Below, piece by piece: positions 17,390 to 28,272 of a stretch of DNA of 64,000 nucleotides. The translations under genes were made by a program, and so were the position numbers. The number at the start of each line of letters is the position of its first letter. The stretch's first letter is position 1. The DNA is from Clostridium sp. Marseille-P299 (GTDB lineage: Bacteria > Bacillota > Clostridia > Lachnospirales > Lachnospiraceae), in contig NZ_FJVE01000007.1 of assembly GCF_900078195.1 (NCBI RefSeq), forward strand, positions 1,240,001 through 1,304,000, given 5' to 3'. The notes beneath the pieces were generated by a model that saw only the letters and a list, made by a program, of their open reading frames with translations, was not told the origin of the DNA and ran no database searches.

Positions 17390-19129
17390 ATGAAATTTAA
17401 AGAAATGAATTTAATAATGCCATTGTTGCAAGCCATTAAGGAGGAAGGTTTTGTGGAGCCGTCTCCCATTCAAGAAAAGACGATTCCACTAGTACTTGAA
17501 GGTAAAGATATCCTTGGATGTGCCCAGACAGGAACAGGAAAGACGGCAGCCTTTGCCTTACCTATTTTACAGAGATTATCAACAGTTAAGGAGAGTGGAG
17601 TAAGAGCACTTATTATTACACCAACGAGGGAATTGGCAATTCAAGTATATGAAAGTTTTGAATGTTTTGGCAAGTATACGAAGCTAAAGCAAAGTGTAAT
17701 TTACGGTGGAGTAGGGCAAAGTGCGCAAGTTAATTCCTTAAAATCGGGAGTGGATATATTAATCGCAACGCCTGGACGCCTTAATGATTTGATTGGACAA
17801 GGCTATATTACGTTAGATTCAATTGAGATGTTTGTACTGGATGAAGCGGATCAAATGCTTGATATGGGATTTTTAAATGATATAAAAAAAGTAATCAAAT
17901 TATTACCGAAGAAACGTCAGACCTTATTGTTTAGTGCGACAATGCCAAAGGAAATTGAAGCACTAGCAACTGGGTTATTACACAATCCTGAAATCGTTAA
18001 AATAAGTGCAGTAACAAGTACTGTTGATTCCATTGAACAAAGTGTTTATTTTGTTGACCGTTTAAATAAACTTCCATTATTGACCTCCTTAATCAAAGAG
18101 CAAAAGATGTCAAGCGTTCTTGTATTTACTAAAACAAAACATGGAGCAGATCGTGTGGCAGACAAGCTTAATAAAGCAAAAGTAAAGGCACTAGCAATAC
18201 ATGGCGATAAGGGTCAGAATGCAAGGCAGAGTGCTCTTAGTGATTTTAAAGAAGGAAGAATAAGAGTTTTAGTAGCAACTGATATTGCAGCAAGGGGAAT
18301 CGATATTTCGGAATTATCTTTTGTGGTAAATTATGATATTCCAAATCAAGCGGAAACTTATATACATCGTATCGGAAGAACTGGCCGTGCCGGATTAGGT
18401 GGAAATGCAATTAATTTATGTAATATTGATGATTTGGATTATTTAAGAGAAATAGAAAAACATATTGGTAAGATTATTCCAGAAGTTACTTCCAAGTGGC
18501 CAATGTTAATACTTGAAAAGACGGAAAAACCAGTCAGAGGTCAAAAAACAGGTAATTCTACTAAGAATATAACTAAAGATTCGGTTAAGGCTGATGTTAA
18601 CGATTCGTCTAAGGCTGATAGCAAAGAAATTAAGTGTGATGCAAAAGATTGGACAGGTAGAGGAACAAAAAAATCAGATGCTCATAAGAAGACGATATCT
18701 AAAAAGGAAGAGAAAAGTGAAAAGGGCTTATCTATAGAGAAGAAAAATGAAGTGAAAAGTATAAAAAGCCCATATATAGATACGAAAAAAGAAGAGAATA
18801 GTAAAAAGTACTCATCTATAGAGAAGAAAAAAGATGAGAAAAGTAAAAAGAACTTAACGATAGAGAAGAAAAAAGATGAGAAAAGTAAAAAGTACTCATC
18901 TATAGAGAAGAAAAAAGATGAGAAAAGTAAAAAGAACTTAACGATAGAGAAGAAAAAAGATGAGAAAAGTAAAAAGTACTCATCTATAGAGAAGAAAAAA
19001 GAAGAGAAGAGTAAAAATAACTCATTTATAGAGAAGAAAAGAGAAGAGAAAAATAAAAAATTCTCATCTATTAAAAAGATAAAATCTGACCAAGCTAGAA
19101 AACAATCGGTATTGGGTAAGAAGCAGTAA
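17390..19129 (+). CDS. DEAD-box ATP-dependent RNA helicase with lysine-rich repeat tail
   Basis: This 579-residue protein has the full DEAD-box core: Q motif (PSPIQEKTIP), motif I AQTGTGKT, PTRELA, TPGR, DEAD at residues 151-154, SAT, and HRIGRTGR (ends near residue 390). It unwinds RNA duplexes, probably in ribosome assembly or cold growth. The core ends near residue 380. From 464 to 561 there are seven 14-residue units of the type EKKKDEKSKKxxxI, all highly basic, which should bind RNA. The ATG has a weak GGAAG site. A paralogue without the repeats lies at 45474. Confidence 0.93.
   Translation: MKFKEMNLIMPLLQAIKEEGFVEPSPIQEKTIPLVLEGKDILGCAQTGTGKTAAFALPILQRLSTVKESGVRALIITPTRELAIQVYESFECFGKYTKLKQSVIYGGVGQSAQVNSLKSGVDILIATPGRLNDLIGQGYITLDSIEMFVLDEADQMLDMGFLNDIKKVIKLLPKKRQTLLFSATMPKEIEALATGLLHNPEIVKISAVTSTVDSIEQSVYFVDRLNKLPLLTSLIKEQKMSSVLVFTKTKHGADRVADKLNKAKVKALAIHGDKGQNARQSALSDFKEGRIRVLVATDIAARGIDISELSFVVNYDIPNQAETYIHRIGRTGRAGLGGNAINLCNIDDLDYLREIEKHIGKIIPEVTSKWPMLILEKTEKPVRGQKTGNSTKNITKDSVKADVNDSSKADSKEIKCDAKDWTGRGTKKSDAHKKTISKKEEKSEKGLSIEKKNEVKSIKSPYIDTKKEENSKKYSSIEKKKDEKSKKNLTIEKKKDEKSKKYSSIEKKKDEKSKKNLTIEKKKDEKSKKYSSIEKKKEEKSKNNSFIEKKREEKNKKFSSIKKIKSDQARKQSVLGKKQ
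18779..19072 (+). repeat. 42-bp in-frame tandem repeat, seven units
   Basis: The repeat lies within the helicase tail. Units begin every 42 bp from 18779. Units 2-5 alternate between two versions (ending NLTI and YSSI), giving an 84-bp higher-order repeat that points to recent duplication. Outer units are more divergent. Confidence 0.9.
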
Positions 19130-19231: not shown

Positions 19232-19271
19232 TAGTCAATGTATTGACTAAACTATGAAAAGATAATATATT
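19232..19271 (+). promoter_or_regulatory. Promoter with overlapping 18-bp inverted repeat for the hydrogenase-rubrerythrin gene
   Basis: TTGACT (19243-19248) and TATATT (19266-19271) are 17 bp apart. A perfect inverted repeat, TAGTCAAT-GT-ATTGACTA (19232-19249), covers the -35 box and looks like a repressor operator. It does not match the Rex, PerR or FNR consensus as I know them. Confidence 0.6.
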
Positions 19272-19307
19272 AGTAATGATAATCAATGTTGGAATATAGG
19301 AGGGATT

Positions 19308-21359
19308 ATGAGTAAACACTTATCAAAAGAAATTCGAGTTCCAATAGAACTAGATAATCCATCAATAGAGCGTAATGAAGCTCTATGCATTAAATGTGGA
19401 CAATGTAAGCAAGTCTGTACAGATTACATTGGTGTACATAATACTTATACATTAGAACAAACCAATGATATTGCAGTTTGCATCCATTGTGGACAATGTG
19501 CTAATGTCTGTCCGGTTGCTAGTATAACTGAGAAAATGGAATATCAGCAAGTAAAAGCTGCCATCCATGATCCAGAAAAGATTGTCATCTTTAACACATC
19601 TCCATCGGTACGTGTAGCATTAGGTGAAGAATTCGGATTAGAAAAAGGAAGTTTTGTTCAAGGAAAGATGGTAGCATTACTTCGTAAATTAGGTGCAGAT
19701 TATGTACTAGATACGAATTTTTCCGCTGACCTTACCATTATGGAAGAAGCAAGTGAATTAATTGAGAGAGTAACCAAAGGGACAAAACCATTGCCACAAT
19801 TTACAAGTTGTTGTCCATCCTGGGTAAAATACGCTGAAATGTATCACCCAGATATGTTAGACCACATATCAACAGCAAAAAGTCCAATTGGAATGCAAGG
19901 CCCAACGGTTAAAACTTATTTTGCTAAAAAAATGAATCTTAATCCAGAAAAAATCGTCAATGTGGCAGTAACCCCTTGTACAGCTAAGAAGTATGAAATT
20001 CGAAGAGAAGAGATGCATGGGGCAGCTGATTATCTTGGTATTGAAGATCTTAAGGATATGGATTATGTCATTACCACAAGAGAATTAGCAAAATGGGCAA
20101 AAGAAGAAAATATCGATTTCCTTGGGCTAGCAGAATCCGAATATGATCCACTTATGGGAGCTGCATCTGGTGCAGGAGTTATCTTTGGAAACACAGGTGG
20201 TGTAATGGAAGCTGCATTACGAACTGCCTATGAATTTATTCTTGGAAAAGAAGCACCAGCTAGTTTGTTTGAACTAAAGCCAGTCAGAGGTATGGAAGAT
20301 ATTCGTGAAGCAACTGTAGATATTGGAGACTTACACCTTAATGTAGCAGTTGTATTTGGAACAGCGAATGCATCAAAATTAATTGAAAAATTAAAAAATA
20401 GTGAAAAACAATATCATTTCATCGAAGTAATGACCTGTCCAGGTGGTTGTATCGGTGGTGGTGGTCAACCAAAGCCAGCATTTGGCGAGGAACAAAGTGC
20501 TAGAGAGGAACGTGTGAAAGGATTGTACCAAAAAGATCAATCAATGCAAGTTCGTTCTAGTCATAAAAATGAAGAAATAAAACAATTATATAAAGAGTTT
20601 TATAAAAAACCGCTATCAGAATTAGCGGAGCAAATGTTACATACATATTATCAAGATAAAAGTGAATTATTAGGAGGAAAAAATAAAATGAGTGAAGCAG
20701 TAAAATACCGTTGTACAATTTGTGGATATATTCATGAAGGAGAGTTACCAGAAGGTTTTACATGTCCTATATGTAAGCAACCAGCTTCTATGTTTGAGAA
20801 AGTAGAAGAAAAGCAATCCAATGGCAATATCTATGCTGGAACAAAAACTGAGAAGAACTTAATGGAAGCATTTGCTGGAGAAAGCCAGGCAAGAAATAAA
20901 TATACATACTTTGCAAAGATTGCAGCACAAGAAGGATATGACCAATTATCTGAAATTTTCTTAAAGACAGCAAGAAATGAGCAAGAACATGCAAGAGTTT
21001 GGTATCAAGAACTTGGAAATCTTGGAAGTACTGCAGAAAATCTATTACATGCAGCTGAAGGTGAAAACTATGAATGGACAGATATGTATGATAGATTTGC
21101 AAAAGACGCAGAAGAAGAAGGATTCACTGAATTAGCAGAACGTTTCCGTAGAGTAGCTGCAATTGAAAAATCTCATGAAGAAAGATATCGTAAGTTATTA
21201 AATAACGTTGAAATGCAAAAAGTATTCGAAAAAGGTGAAGAGACTATGTGGGAATGCCGCGTTTGTGGACATCTTGTAATGGGTAAAAAAGCACCTGAAG
21301 TATGTCCAGTATGTAAATATTCTCAAAGCTACTTCGAAGTAAGAAAAGAGAACTATTAA
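19308..21359 (+). CDS. [FeFe]-hydrogenase fused to rubredoxin-rubrerythrin-rubredoxin
   Basis: This single 683-residue frame has two [4Fe-4S] clusters (C27/30/33/37 and C58/61/64/68). An H-cluster domain follows, with L1 TSCCPSW (C168, C169), L2 TPCTAKKYE (C224; canonical MPC is TPC) and L3 [12 protein letters not shown] (C377, C381). After a linker come an N-terminal-type rubredoxin (C469/C472/C486/C489), a rubrerythrin four-helix diiron domain ([16 protein letters not shown]), and a C-terminal rubredoxin. It could couple H2 oxidation to peroxide reduction. AGGAGG and ATG at 20688 (Met461) would also allow the rubrerythrin half to be made alone. GGAGGG precedes the ATG at 19308. Confidence 0.93.
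20672..20690 (+). promoter_or_regulatory. Internal ribosome binding site and start codon inside the fusion gene
   Basis: AGGAGG at 20672-20677 is followed after ten bases by an in-frame ATG (20688) that begins the rubredoxin-rubrerythrin part. It is the best ribosome binding site in the gene, and its position exactly at the domain border suggests either a second product or a relic of two fused genes. Confidence 0.65.
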
Positions 21360-21423
21360 TCCATAGTTTTTGCATTTTGTATTAATAGTTGGTGTTCAAT
21401 TCGCCATCGACTTTATAAAATCA

Positions 21424-21451
21424 GACTCAAGTCTTAGGACTTGAGTCTTTT
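21424..21451 (+). terminator. Intrinsic terminator of the hydrogenase-rubrerythrin gene
   Basis: A perfect 10-bp stem, GACTCAAGTC/GACTTGAGTC with loop TTAG, is followed by T residues. Confidence 0.9.
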
Positions 21452-26250: not shown

Positions 26251-28050
26251 TTAATTTGACTTTACTTTAACGATAATGCCTAAATCGGAAATACTGCTGT
26301 TAGCTTGAATTGTTTGATTATAATCCACTGGTGTAATAGTGATTTTGTTTTGTTTCATTTTTGCTGTGCAATTCCAGTTATCCTTAATCTCAGCATTACT
26401 TTGAAATTCTAATTTAAGGGTCCAATTCTCAATCGGTATTGAGGTAATATTTTTAAGCGTAATTCGGTACAAATAACACTTGCTTCCTGATTCTTCCCAG
26501 GATGTATCAAGTAAGATCGAAGGTTGAATAGAATCACTAACAGTTATTTTTTTAATGAAATCATCTATATCCGCTGATTCAGTTGTAGAAGTAGATGAAT
26601 TATTTTTAGGAATATCGGTAGGAGTTGGCGTTACTTTAATGGAAGATGTATTTTTATTTGCGGTTGTATTATCAGAAGAATTATTATCTTGATTTGCATT
26701 AGAACCAAGATTATCCGTTCCGCTAAGCATAGATTTTAACCATTTTCCACTATCAGAAAGATCTTCATCCAAAAAGCCTGATGTTTTTTTACAAGAACTT
26801 TTTATAATTGCAGAGCTTTCACTTTTGTTCGAAAGGTTCCACGCAATGTAACTTACCTTATGTTGATCCATCAAAGCGACCCATTTATTTGCTTCCTCTG
26901 TATTAATTAATCCGTTTCCCGAGGCATCGCATATACCGTACTCGCTAACAAAGACAGGAAGACCACTTTCAATTGCCGAAACCATTTTGTTTCTCAAATT
27001 ATCACGATGTGTATCTGCGTAAAAATGTAAGGCATACATTATATTATCATACTCCGTTATTGGTGATTGTGCAGCTATGTCAACATCTTGTGACCATGTT
27101 GGGGTACCAACTATTATAATGGCATCAGGAGCATTTTTACGGATGGCAGGAATGACTTGTTTTGCATAAGATTTAATGTCCGCCCAAGTAGTGCTACCAT
27201 TTGGTTCATTACATATTTCATATAAAATATGCGGATCATTTTTATATTTCGATGAGATTTCATCAAAAAACTCAATCGCATCCTTTACGTGGGTTAATGG
27301 ATTTCCATCACTTAAAATATGCCAGTCAACTATTACATAAAGGTCTAAATCTTGTGCGATTTCAATCCCTTTATTAACAATTGATTTTAGATTCTTTTTC
27401 TGTGCTTCATTGCTTGAACAGTATCCATTATATTCTTCTGTATACATGGCTAGACGAAGAACATTCATATTCCAGTCATTTTTAAAGGATTTAAATGCAT
27501 CCATGTTGATGTATTCTGGAAACCAACCAAGTCCGTGAGAGCTTAGACCTTTTAATTGTATCGGATTATTATTTTCGTCACATAGATTAGTTCCGTTTAC
27601 ATGCAATTGTCCGTAATAATCTAGAGTGGAAGTCTTAGTTTTATTTTTTGAAGCTGAATTATTTTTAGATTCTGTATTATTCATTGAAGTTCCACTATCC
27701 TTTGAAGTTTCAGTAGTATTTGAACTCGTGTTGTTTTTATTATCAGTATTATTATGTACATTAGAAGTAGTATTTTCGTCCGTGCTTGTAATGATATCAG
27801 AGCTTATTTCATTTTCTTCATTCTGATTGGCACTAGAATTTGAATCAGTATTAGAATTCAAATTATTGTTCGAATTTTTATCATTACTCGGCTCAGTTAA
27901 TTCATTTGATTCGGGTGTTTGTAATGAACTCTTCTCTTCGGTAACTATAGTAGGCTCTATTTTAGAATCAGTCATTTTAGATTGGCATCCCGTTAAAATA
28001 AATAAAGATAGTATGATAAAGTATTTAGTTAAATTCCATTTTCCTTTCAT
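26251..28050 (-). CDS. GH5 family cellulase lipoprotein with C-terminal CBM2-like domain
   Basis: This 599-residue exported enzyme has a lipobox LTGC at Cys22, then an Asn/Ser/Thr-rich linker of about 120 residues. The GH5 (subfamily 2-like) barrel starts near YYGQLHVNG, with acid/base Glu282 (CNEPNG) and nucleophile Glu370 (VSEYGI). After a second low-complexity linker, a C-terminal domain with NWTLKLEF and DNWNCTA resembles CBM2. It should cut beta-1,4-glucan while attached to the membrane. ATG at 28050 has GAGG seven bases upstream; the in-frame GTG at 28062 is less likely. It is divergent from the pectate lyase gene. Confidence 0.92.
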   Translation of the reverse strand: MKGKWNLTKYFIILSLFILTGCQSKMTDSKIEPTIVTEEKSSLQTPESNELTEPSNDKNSNNNLNSNTDSNSSANQNEENEISSDIITSTDENTTSNVHNNTDNKNNTSSNTTETSKDSGTSMNNTESKNNSASKNKTKTSTLDYYGQLHVNGTNLCDENNNPIQLKGLSSHGLGWFPEYINMDAFKSFKNDWNMNVLRLAMYTEEYNGYCSSNEAQKKNLKSIVNKGIEIAQDLDLYVIVDWHILSDGNPLTHVKDAIEFFDEISSKYKNDPHILYEICNEPNGSTTWADIKSYAKQVIPAIRKNAPDAIIIVGTPTWSQDVDIAAQSPITEYDNIMYALHFYADTHRDNLRNKMVSAIESGLPVFVSEYGICDASGNGLINTEEANKWVALMDQHKVSYIAWNLSNKSESSAIIKSSCKKTSGFLDEDLSDSGKWLKSMLSGTDNLGSNANQDNNSSDNTTANKNTSSIKVTPTPTDIPKNNSSTSTTESADIDDFIKKITVSDSIQPSILLDTSWEESGSKCYLYRITLKNITSIPIENWTLKLEFQSNAEIKDNWNCTAKMKQNKITITPVDYNQTIQANSSISDLGIIVKVKSN

Positions 28051-28272
28051 TGATAACCTCACATTAAAATTGATTTACACTTTTAGTATAAACAATGACT
28101 GTAAAAATGCAATACTAACTAAAATTGTAAATGCTTACAAAGTATTAACATATATACCCTGGGATAAATTGAAAGGAAAATCAAAATGCACAAAATAGAT
28201 AGTCTTTTAATTAGTTCAGAATATATACAAATATACATTTTTAACAAAAAATATGTTTTTGATAAAGAATTA

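Follow-up and report, generated by a model that had tools for sequence, protein, structure and literature searches.

The window analysed here is a stretch of 64,000 nucleotides of Clostridium sp. Marseille-P299, and all positions are counted from its first letter. At 19308 to 21359 it carries a single open reading frame, hydR, whose product runs from an [FeFe]-hydrogenase through a rubredoxin and a rubrerythrin to a second rubredoxin. The features of the gene and its immediate surroundings are as follows (+ denotes the forward strand).

19243 to 19271, +: promoter-like site TTGACT-17-TATATT, matching the consensus at 10 of 12 positions
19298 to 19303, +: Shine-Dalgarno (SD) sequence of the full-length product, AGGAGG, SD energy -10.7
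19308 to 21359, +: hydR, full-length [FeFe]-hydrogenase-rubredoxin-rubrerythrin-rubredoxin of 683 aa, with an ATG start and no internal stop
19386 to 19418, +: first 4Fe-4S motif CxxCxxCxxxC, residues 27-37, cysteines invariant in the alignment
19479 to 19511, +: second 4Fe-4S motif CxxCxxCxxxC, residues 58-68, cysteines invariant in the alignment
19803 to 19823, +: H-cluster loop L1, TSCCPSW, residues 166-172
19971 to 19997, +: H-cluster loop L2, TPCTAKKYE, residues 222-230, identical to the string quoted for CpII
20424 to 20471, +: H-cluster loop L3, residues 373-388, with its motif read at 377-386
20712 to 20774, +: cysteine span of the N-terminal rubredoxin, residues 469-489 (Cys 469/472/486/489), invariant in the alignment
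20853 to 21200, +: rubrerythrin diiron domain by Pfam, residues 516-631
21249 to 21338, +: C-terminal rubredoxin by Pfam, residues 648-677 (Cys 650/653/666/669)
21423 to 21448, +: terminator-like hairpin with an 11-pair stem and a T-rich tail

Pfam returns Fer4-type matches inside residues 20-85, Fe_hyd_lg_C at residues 91-385 (6e-93), Fe_hyd_SSU at 397-451 (5.7e-20), Rubrerythrin at 516-631 (9.1e-23) and RUBY_RBDX in two stretches (6.6e-21), while NCBIfam scores FeFe_hydrog_A at 478.7 bits (cut-off 405.95) and RuberyRbr at 255.5 (cut-off 200). The hydrogenase is a complete group A enzyme with all three H-cluster loops in the one chain, two N-terminal 4Fe-4S motifs and a small-subunit-type tail, and the same chain holds both rubredoxins and the rubrerythrin diiron domain with its ExxH motifs at residues 558-561 and 620-623. 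When the window protein is aligned with 16 homologues, hand-picked from the homologue list, all rows share the cofactor cysteines as well as the E and H of either ExxH motif. The rubrerythrin is of the short-loop, homodimer type: 170 window residues align with 183 of the D. vulgaris rubrerythrin 1b71. The original prediction of one 683-residue frame that unites a hydrogenase and a rubrerythrin with two 4Fe-4S motifs and two rubredoxins is therefore confirmed by the reading frame, both profile libraries and the motifs. A sequencing or assembly accident as the origin of the fusion is ruled out by the full-length frame in many genomes and in the 120 listed homologues (the best 120 of 7997 scored), each of which aligns over 99-100% of the query. 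A structure predicted from 17 sequences has a mean pLDDT of 60.2 and a pTM of 0.52, with low confidence at residues 445-463, which form the linker between hydrogenase and rubredoxin.

To judge from the sequence, hydR seems to stand alone and to be transcribed on its own. The promoter-like site is weak evidence because such sites are equally frequent in shuffled sequence (10 found, 10.8 expected); terminator-like hairpins number six in the region against 1.4 expected. The upstream open reading frame (17390-19129) reads like a DEAD-box helicase, and its Lys-rich tail contains a 42-base tandem repeat in 8.8 copies (18701-19071). The downstream frame lies on the opposite strand and reads like an NlpC/P60-type peptidase. 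Farther along, a 603-aa frame at 26251-28062 on the reverse strand resembles, by sequence reading, a secreted cellulase of GH5-like type. We also considered hydR as a PerR-regulated oxidative-stress gene and rejected the idea for want of a conserved operator: 99 of 200 shuffles contain a PerR-like match at least as good as the window's best, and no PerR-like box shared with relatives was seen.

What the full-length protein probably does can be gauged from a homologue. CperHydR of Clostridium perfringens, purified, is an H2-dependent H2O2 reductase with a turnover under H2 of 442 +/- 120 per min, and when CO replaces H2 no significant H2O2 reduction is left (PMC11926857, JACS 2025); the introduction of that paper credits the earlier proposal of such a chimera to Calusinska et al. 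CperHydR holds rubredoxin centres and a diiron site besides its H-cluster and two 4Fe-4S clusters (PMC11926857). The window HydR likewise combines an H-cluster and two 4Fe-4S motifs with two rubredoxins and the diiron site of a rubrerythrin in one chain, and it shares both the TPCTAKK-type L2 and the short-loop rubrerythrin; it differs in that L2 reads TPCTAKKYE here and TPCTAKKFE in CperHydR. From these matching domains and motifs we infer that the window HydR is likewise an H2-dependent H2O2 reductase. The original prediction of H2-linked peroxide reduction thus finds support in a homologue that shares this architecture and has been purified, although its further remark that such a peroxidase was not known to have been biochemically described no longer holds: the function was published in 2025 and is not new. 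In the same work the whole enzyme is oxygen-sensitive, and an artificial rubrerythrin-only version of CperHydR reduces H2O2 once pre-reduced and appeared air-stable (PMC11926857).

In that paper CperHydR is treated as one product. Our reading of the window gene departs from this, because of three features at the junction of hydrogenase and rubredoxin that the original prediction did not note:

20672 to 20677, +: internal SD sequence AGGAGG in the hydrogenase-rubredoxin linker, SD energy -10.2, conserved
20688 to 20690, +: internal in-frame ATG, Met461, conserved in relatives
20688 to 21359, +: predicted second product, a free rubredoxin-rubrerythrin-rubredoxin of 223 aa, its translation inferred

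Ten bases separate the internal AGGAGG from the ATG, which stands just before the first rubredoxin. The SD energy of Met461 is the best among the 22 internal Mets and close to the -10.7 of the main start, and the message around it is unusually unstructured (-0.2 kcal/mol against a mean of -6.1). The predicted 223-residue product on its own scores 261.7 with the NCBIfam rubrerythrin profile, again above the cut-off of 200. A separate promoter for the second product is not indicated: no promoter-like site was found on the forward strand within 20413-20688 in a scan of little power, such sites being as common by chance in the window.

The signal recurs in most of the hydrogenase-rubrerythrin fusions collected. 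Fusions were collected from 80 genome loci and from searches of 12, 299, 391, 392 and 206 genomes (partly overlapping), and an SD was called strong at an energy of -6 or below, a cut-off of our own choosing. In a set of 38 ORFs, left after a k-mer redundancy filter and searched for a Met at most 12 residues before the first rubredoxin cysteine, a junction Met is present in 35, and 30 of these 35 have a strong SD. Other internal Mets of the same genes reach that energy in only 97 of 675 cases (Mann-Whitney p = 1.5e-19; the rows are related to one another, so neither this p-value nor any given below is to be taken literally). In a second set of 42 ORFs, for which ATG, GTG and TTG were all accepted, a start codon lies at the junction in 40 and a strong SD in 35; this set includes near-copies (such as L001/L111, L118/L119, L120/L134) and one gene entered twice (L014/L102), and the same L014 had been scored without a Met in the 38-ORF set solely because of the anchor setting. 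The spacing is equally regular, with the SD core ending 8-11 bases upstream of the ATG in all 37 tabulated rows. There are exceptions: AAGGAGG is kept in L141 but the start codon is missing, both are missing from L146, and the SD is weaker in L005, L015, L113, L117 and L138. A weaker SD was also noted in L061. A fusion outside the sets, interrupted elsewhere by an in-frame TAG (L121), also has the internal ATG with an SD energy of -7.7.

The second rubredoxin provides an internal control. Of 40 fusions, 39 have a Met and 34 a strong SD at the junction, whereas the matched site before the C-terminal rubredoxin has a Met in nine and a strong SD in five. The window gene itself has a second SD-like stretch here (21222-21248, energy -8.5) before Met647, a position at which the nine just counted are the only relatives with a Met. 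At the protein level, 119 of the 120 close homologues have a Met no more than 10 residues ahead of the first rubredoxin cysteine, the exception (P0086) having Val. A second protein search, with Clostridium, Paraclostridium and Cetobacterium among its named members, gave 50 new proteins (P0123-P0172), and the same Met is found in all 49 that could be parsed; P0144, a 696-aa protein standing for 1196 member sequences and possibly that of C. perfringens, has the linker DLGGEKM.

Four-fold degenerate sites of the fusion genes are near saturation, with a median identity of 0.32 against a chance value of 0.26 (861 pairs, near-copies included). The Gly codon at the SD position is nevertheless GGA in 31 of 32 fusions, where the codon usage of the individual genes predicts 12.8 (p = 1e-12); among genes with a GC3 above 0.55 and a linker Gly it is GGA in 7 of 7 against 1.85 expected. 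Linkers that place a Glu in this register use GAG in 16 of 17 cases against 6.4 expected (p = 3e-7). Gly linkers keep GGA and Glu linkers keep GAG, so that different peptides encode the same RNA motif. In the nine genes with an LGG linker, most pairs are near chance at four-fold sites, yet all nine keep TT(A/G)GGAGG; a single codon is kept at 26 of 334 invariant degenerate residues and at 3 of 32 invariant glycines, the SD-position Gly among them. L112 even uses TTA within the motif, a codon that makes up 5% of its remaining Leu codons. A stricter test, in which nothing but synonymous codons is shuffled before the SD is scored again, tells less strongly for the signal, with combined p-values of only 0.007 for the hydrogenase fusions and 0.003 for fusions of a ferredoxin domain to rubrerythrin; it errs on the cautious side, since Gly-Gly or Lys-Gly-Asp by itself dictates a large part of the motif. 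In 33 of 40 fusions the junction also ranks among the least structured 10% of its own message, a low structure explained in part by the A-rich Lys codons of Lys-rich linkers. The family to which hydR belongs thus keeps an SD and an in-frame start codon beyond the needs of the peptide, as a dual-product gene would. Searches of open-licence PMC papers, and a term search of the main text of PMC11926857, turned up no reference to internal starts for HydR or for fusions of rubrerythrin.

The same signal appears where rubrerythrin is joined to other partners. Ferredoxin-domain-rubrerythrin fusions have the start in 18 of 19 and a strong SD in 17 of 19; these counts combine a first set (start 16/16, strong SD 15/16) with three ORFs scored separately (L177, L178, L181), two of which carry the signal while L181 is without the start. 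Among flavin-reductase-rubredoxin-rubrerythrin fusions (eight rows less the misfiled L028 and L057), four of six have it (L039, L042, L186, L187) and two do not (L049, L055). In those four the SD and ATG stand directly before the rubrerythrin, unlike their position in the hydrogenase fusions. The excluded L028, a fusion of another kind, also carries the signal, with an SD energy of -8.9. Start and strong SD occur as well in three of seven hydrogenase-rubredoxin fusions that lack rubrerythrin, which means that rubrerythrin is not a strict requirement for the signal.

Several further arrangements were seen along the way. L164 and L165 are hydrogenase-rubrerythrin fusions with an additional rubredoxin ahead of the rubrerythrin, and L123 and L168 are hydrogenases that carry three to four rubredoxins in tandem and lack rubrerythrin. 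In L045 (3953-7207) two consecutive frames, a hydrogenase-rubredoxin-(unassigned)-rubredoxin and a ferredoxin-domain-rubrerythrin fusion, bring hydrogenase and rubrerythrin together as neighbours rather than in one chain. L124 (292-3159, reverse strand) encodes a 955-aa frame of [FeFe]-hydrogenase, a rubredoxin-like region and Glu_synthase (FMN type; Pfam 5.5e-98).

How did the signal come to lie inside these genes? Stand-alone rubrerythrins with an extra N-terminal rubredoxin (L023, L032, L034) consist of the same module as the hydR cassette, and their first Met stands four or five residues before the rubredoxin cysteine, the place of the internal ATG in most fused genes; unlike hydR, they are separate genes without a hydrogenase. 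In a tree of the cassette, with rows of at most 120 residues dropped, the hydrogenase-fusion label needs 19 changes, and in a tree of the hydrogenase (78 of 95 rows) the rubrerythrin label needs 13. Because fused and unfused forms are intermixed in both trees, the modules have repeatedly been joined, split or swapped, and relic SDs are possible in some lineages. One could therefore suppose that hydR makes the single fused product only and that the SD and ATG inside it no longer act, being left over from a rubrerythrin gene that was once separate and was then joined to the hydrogenase gene. Joins that recur would favour this, as would the two of 44 unfused hydrogenases (L016, L021) behind which a rubrerythrin gene, separate and equipped with its own SD, follows within 900 bases, and as would the published account, PMC11926857, which reports only the fused form and in whose main text a term search met no internal start. 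The codons speak against it: those of the SD are kept while the silent sites around them are close to saturated, GGA persists in all seven genes of high GC3, and L112 retains its otherwise rare TTA. Near-saturated silent sites argue against relics as a general explanation, and we regard it as unlikely for hydR.

A conserved signal could still serve something other than initiation. Ribosome pausing at internal SD-like sequences is possible, if disputed, and the SD-like sequence in hydR sits exactly at a domain boundary, so that it might slow elongating ribosomes and let the hydrogenase half fold first with no initiation there. Pausing has no need of a start codon, yet one is kept 8-11 bases after the core (40 of 42 ORFs), and in the four flavin-reductase fusions that carry the signal it shifts to directly before the rubrerythrin; we consider this explanation very improbable. 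Least credible is that the enzyme runs mainly in reverse, as an electron valve that discharges reduced ferredoxin onto protons. Bidirectionality is typical of [FeFe]-hydrogenases (PMC11926857), but CperHydR evolves at most 3 umol H2/min/mg against an uptake of 41 and shows no significant proton-reduction current, and L2 is TPCTAKKYE here, as quoted for the uptake-biased CpII, while 41 of the 42 hydrogenase-rubrerythrin ORFs have an L2 of TPCTAKK type (the remaining row is unmatched by the pattern used), a motif linked to uptake bias (PMC11926857). The original suggestion that the protein vents electrons to protons when peroxide is lacking is unlikely for the same two reasons, the near-zero H2 evolution of CperHydR and the CpII-type L2.

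We therefore favour hydR as a dual-product gene: judged on its conserved signals, it probably yields both a fused H2-dependent H2O2 reductase and a free 223-aa rubredoxin-rubrerythrin-rubredoxin from the internal start. In the fused product the H-cluster would split H2, the electrons would run through the 4Fe-4S clusters and rubredoxins to the diiron site of the rubrerythrin, and there H2O2 would be reduced to water. Ribosomes initiating also at 20688, as the conservation suggests, would supply the free part, which would be capable of pairing through its rubrerythrin domain with itself or with the fused chain. Such pairing is plausible because this rubrerythrin is without the loop insert seen in the monomeric type: it falls about 13 residues short of the D. 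vulgaris protein, and PMC11926857 ties those missing 13 residues to homodimers. More speculatively, the free part might continue to remove peroxide after oxygen has damaged the hydrogenase half, and might draw its electrons from other rubredoxin reductants. The original prediction had set two separate products against its reading of a single enzyme; that may be half true, in that the fused protein stands and a free rubrerythrin part is predicted in addition.

There is precedent for one gene giving a long protein together with its own C-terminal part. Such pairs arise by internal initiation in Spa33-FL/Spa33-C, where two Spa33-C bind one full-length Spa33 (PMC4832279), and from an internal start in Cas8b/Cas11b (PMC11899642). 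The outcome predicted for hydR is of the same form; unlike it, the secretion-system protein Spa33 and the CRISPR proteins Cas8b/Cas11b are experimentally proven in those accounts, whereas for hydR the parts are redox modules and the evidence is comparative.

A wider reading takes rubrerythrin to be a mobile redox cassette that brings its own ribosome-binding site, in three kinds of fusion (hydR, ferredoxin-domain-rubrerythrin and flavin-reductase-rubredoxin-rubrerythrin). Each would then yield the fusion and free rubrerythrin, forming mixed oligomers whose ratio would set the number of peroxide-reducing sites per hydrogenase, and an oxygen-stable peroxidase would be left when the hydrogenase is destroyed. 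To this broader proposal we give even chances.

If hydR does make two products, C-terminally tagged HydR preparations may be mixtures, and the composition of the dimers would need rechecking. For the organism, an oxygen-sensitive hydrogenase would gain a built-in oxygen-stable partner. For the family, internal starts at the rubrerythrin boundary in three kinds of fusion would be an example of how genes can be fused without losing the separate protein.
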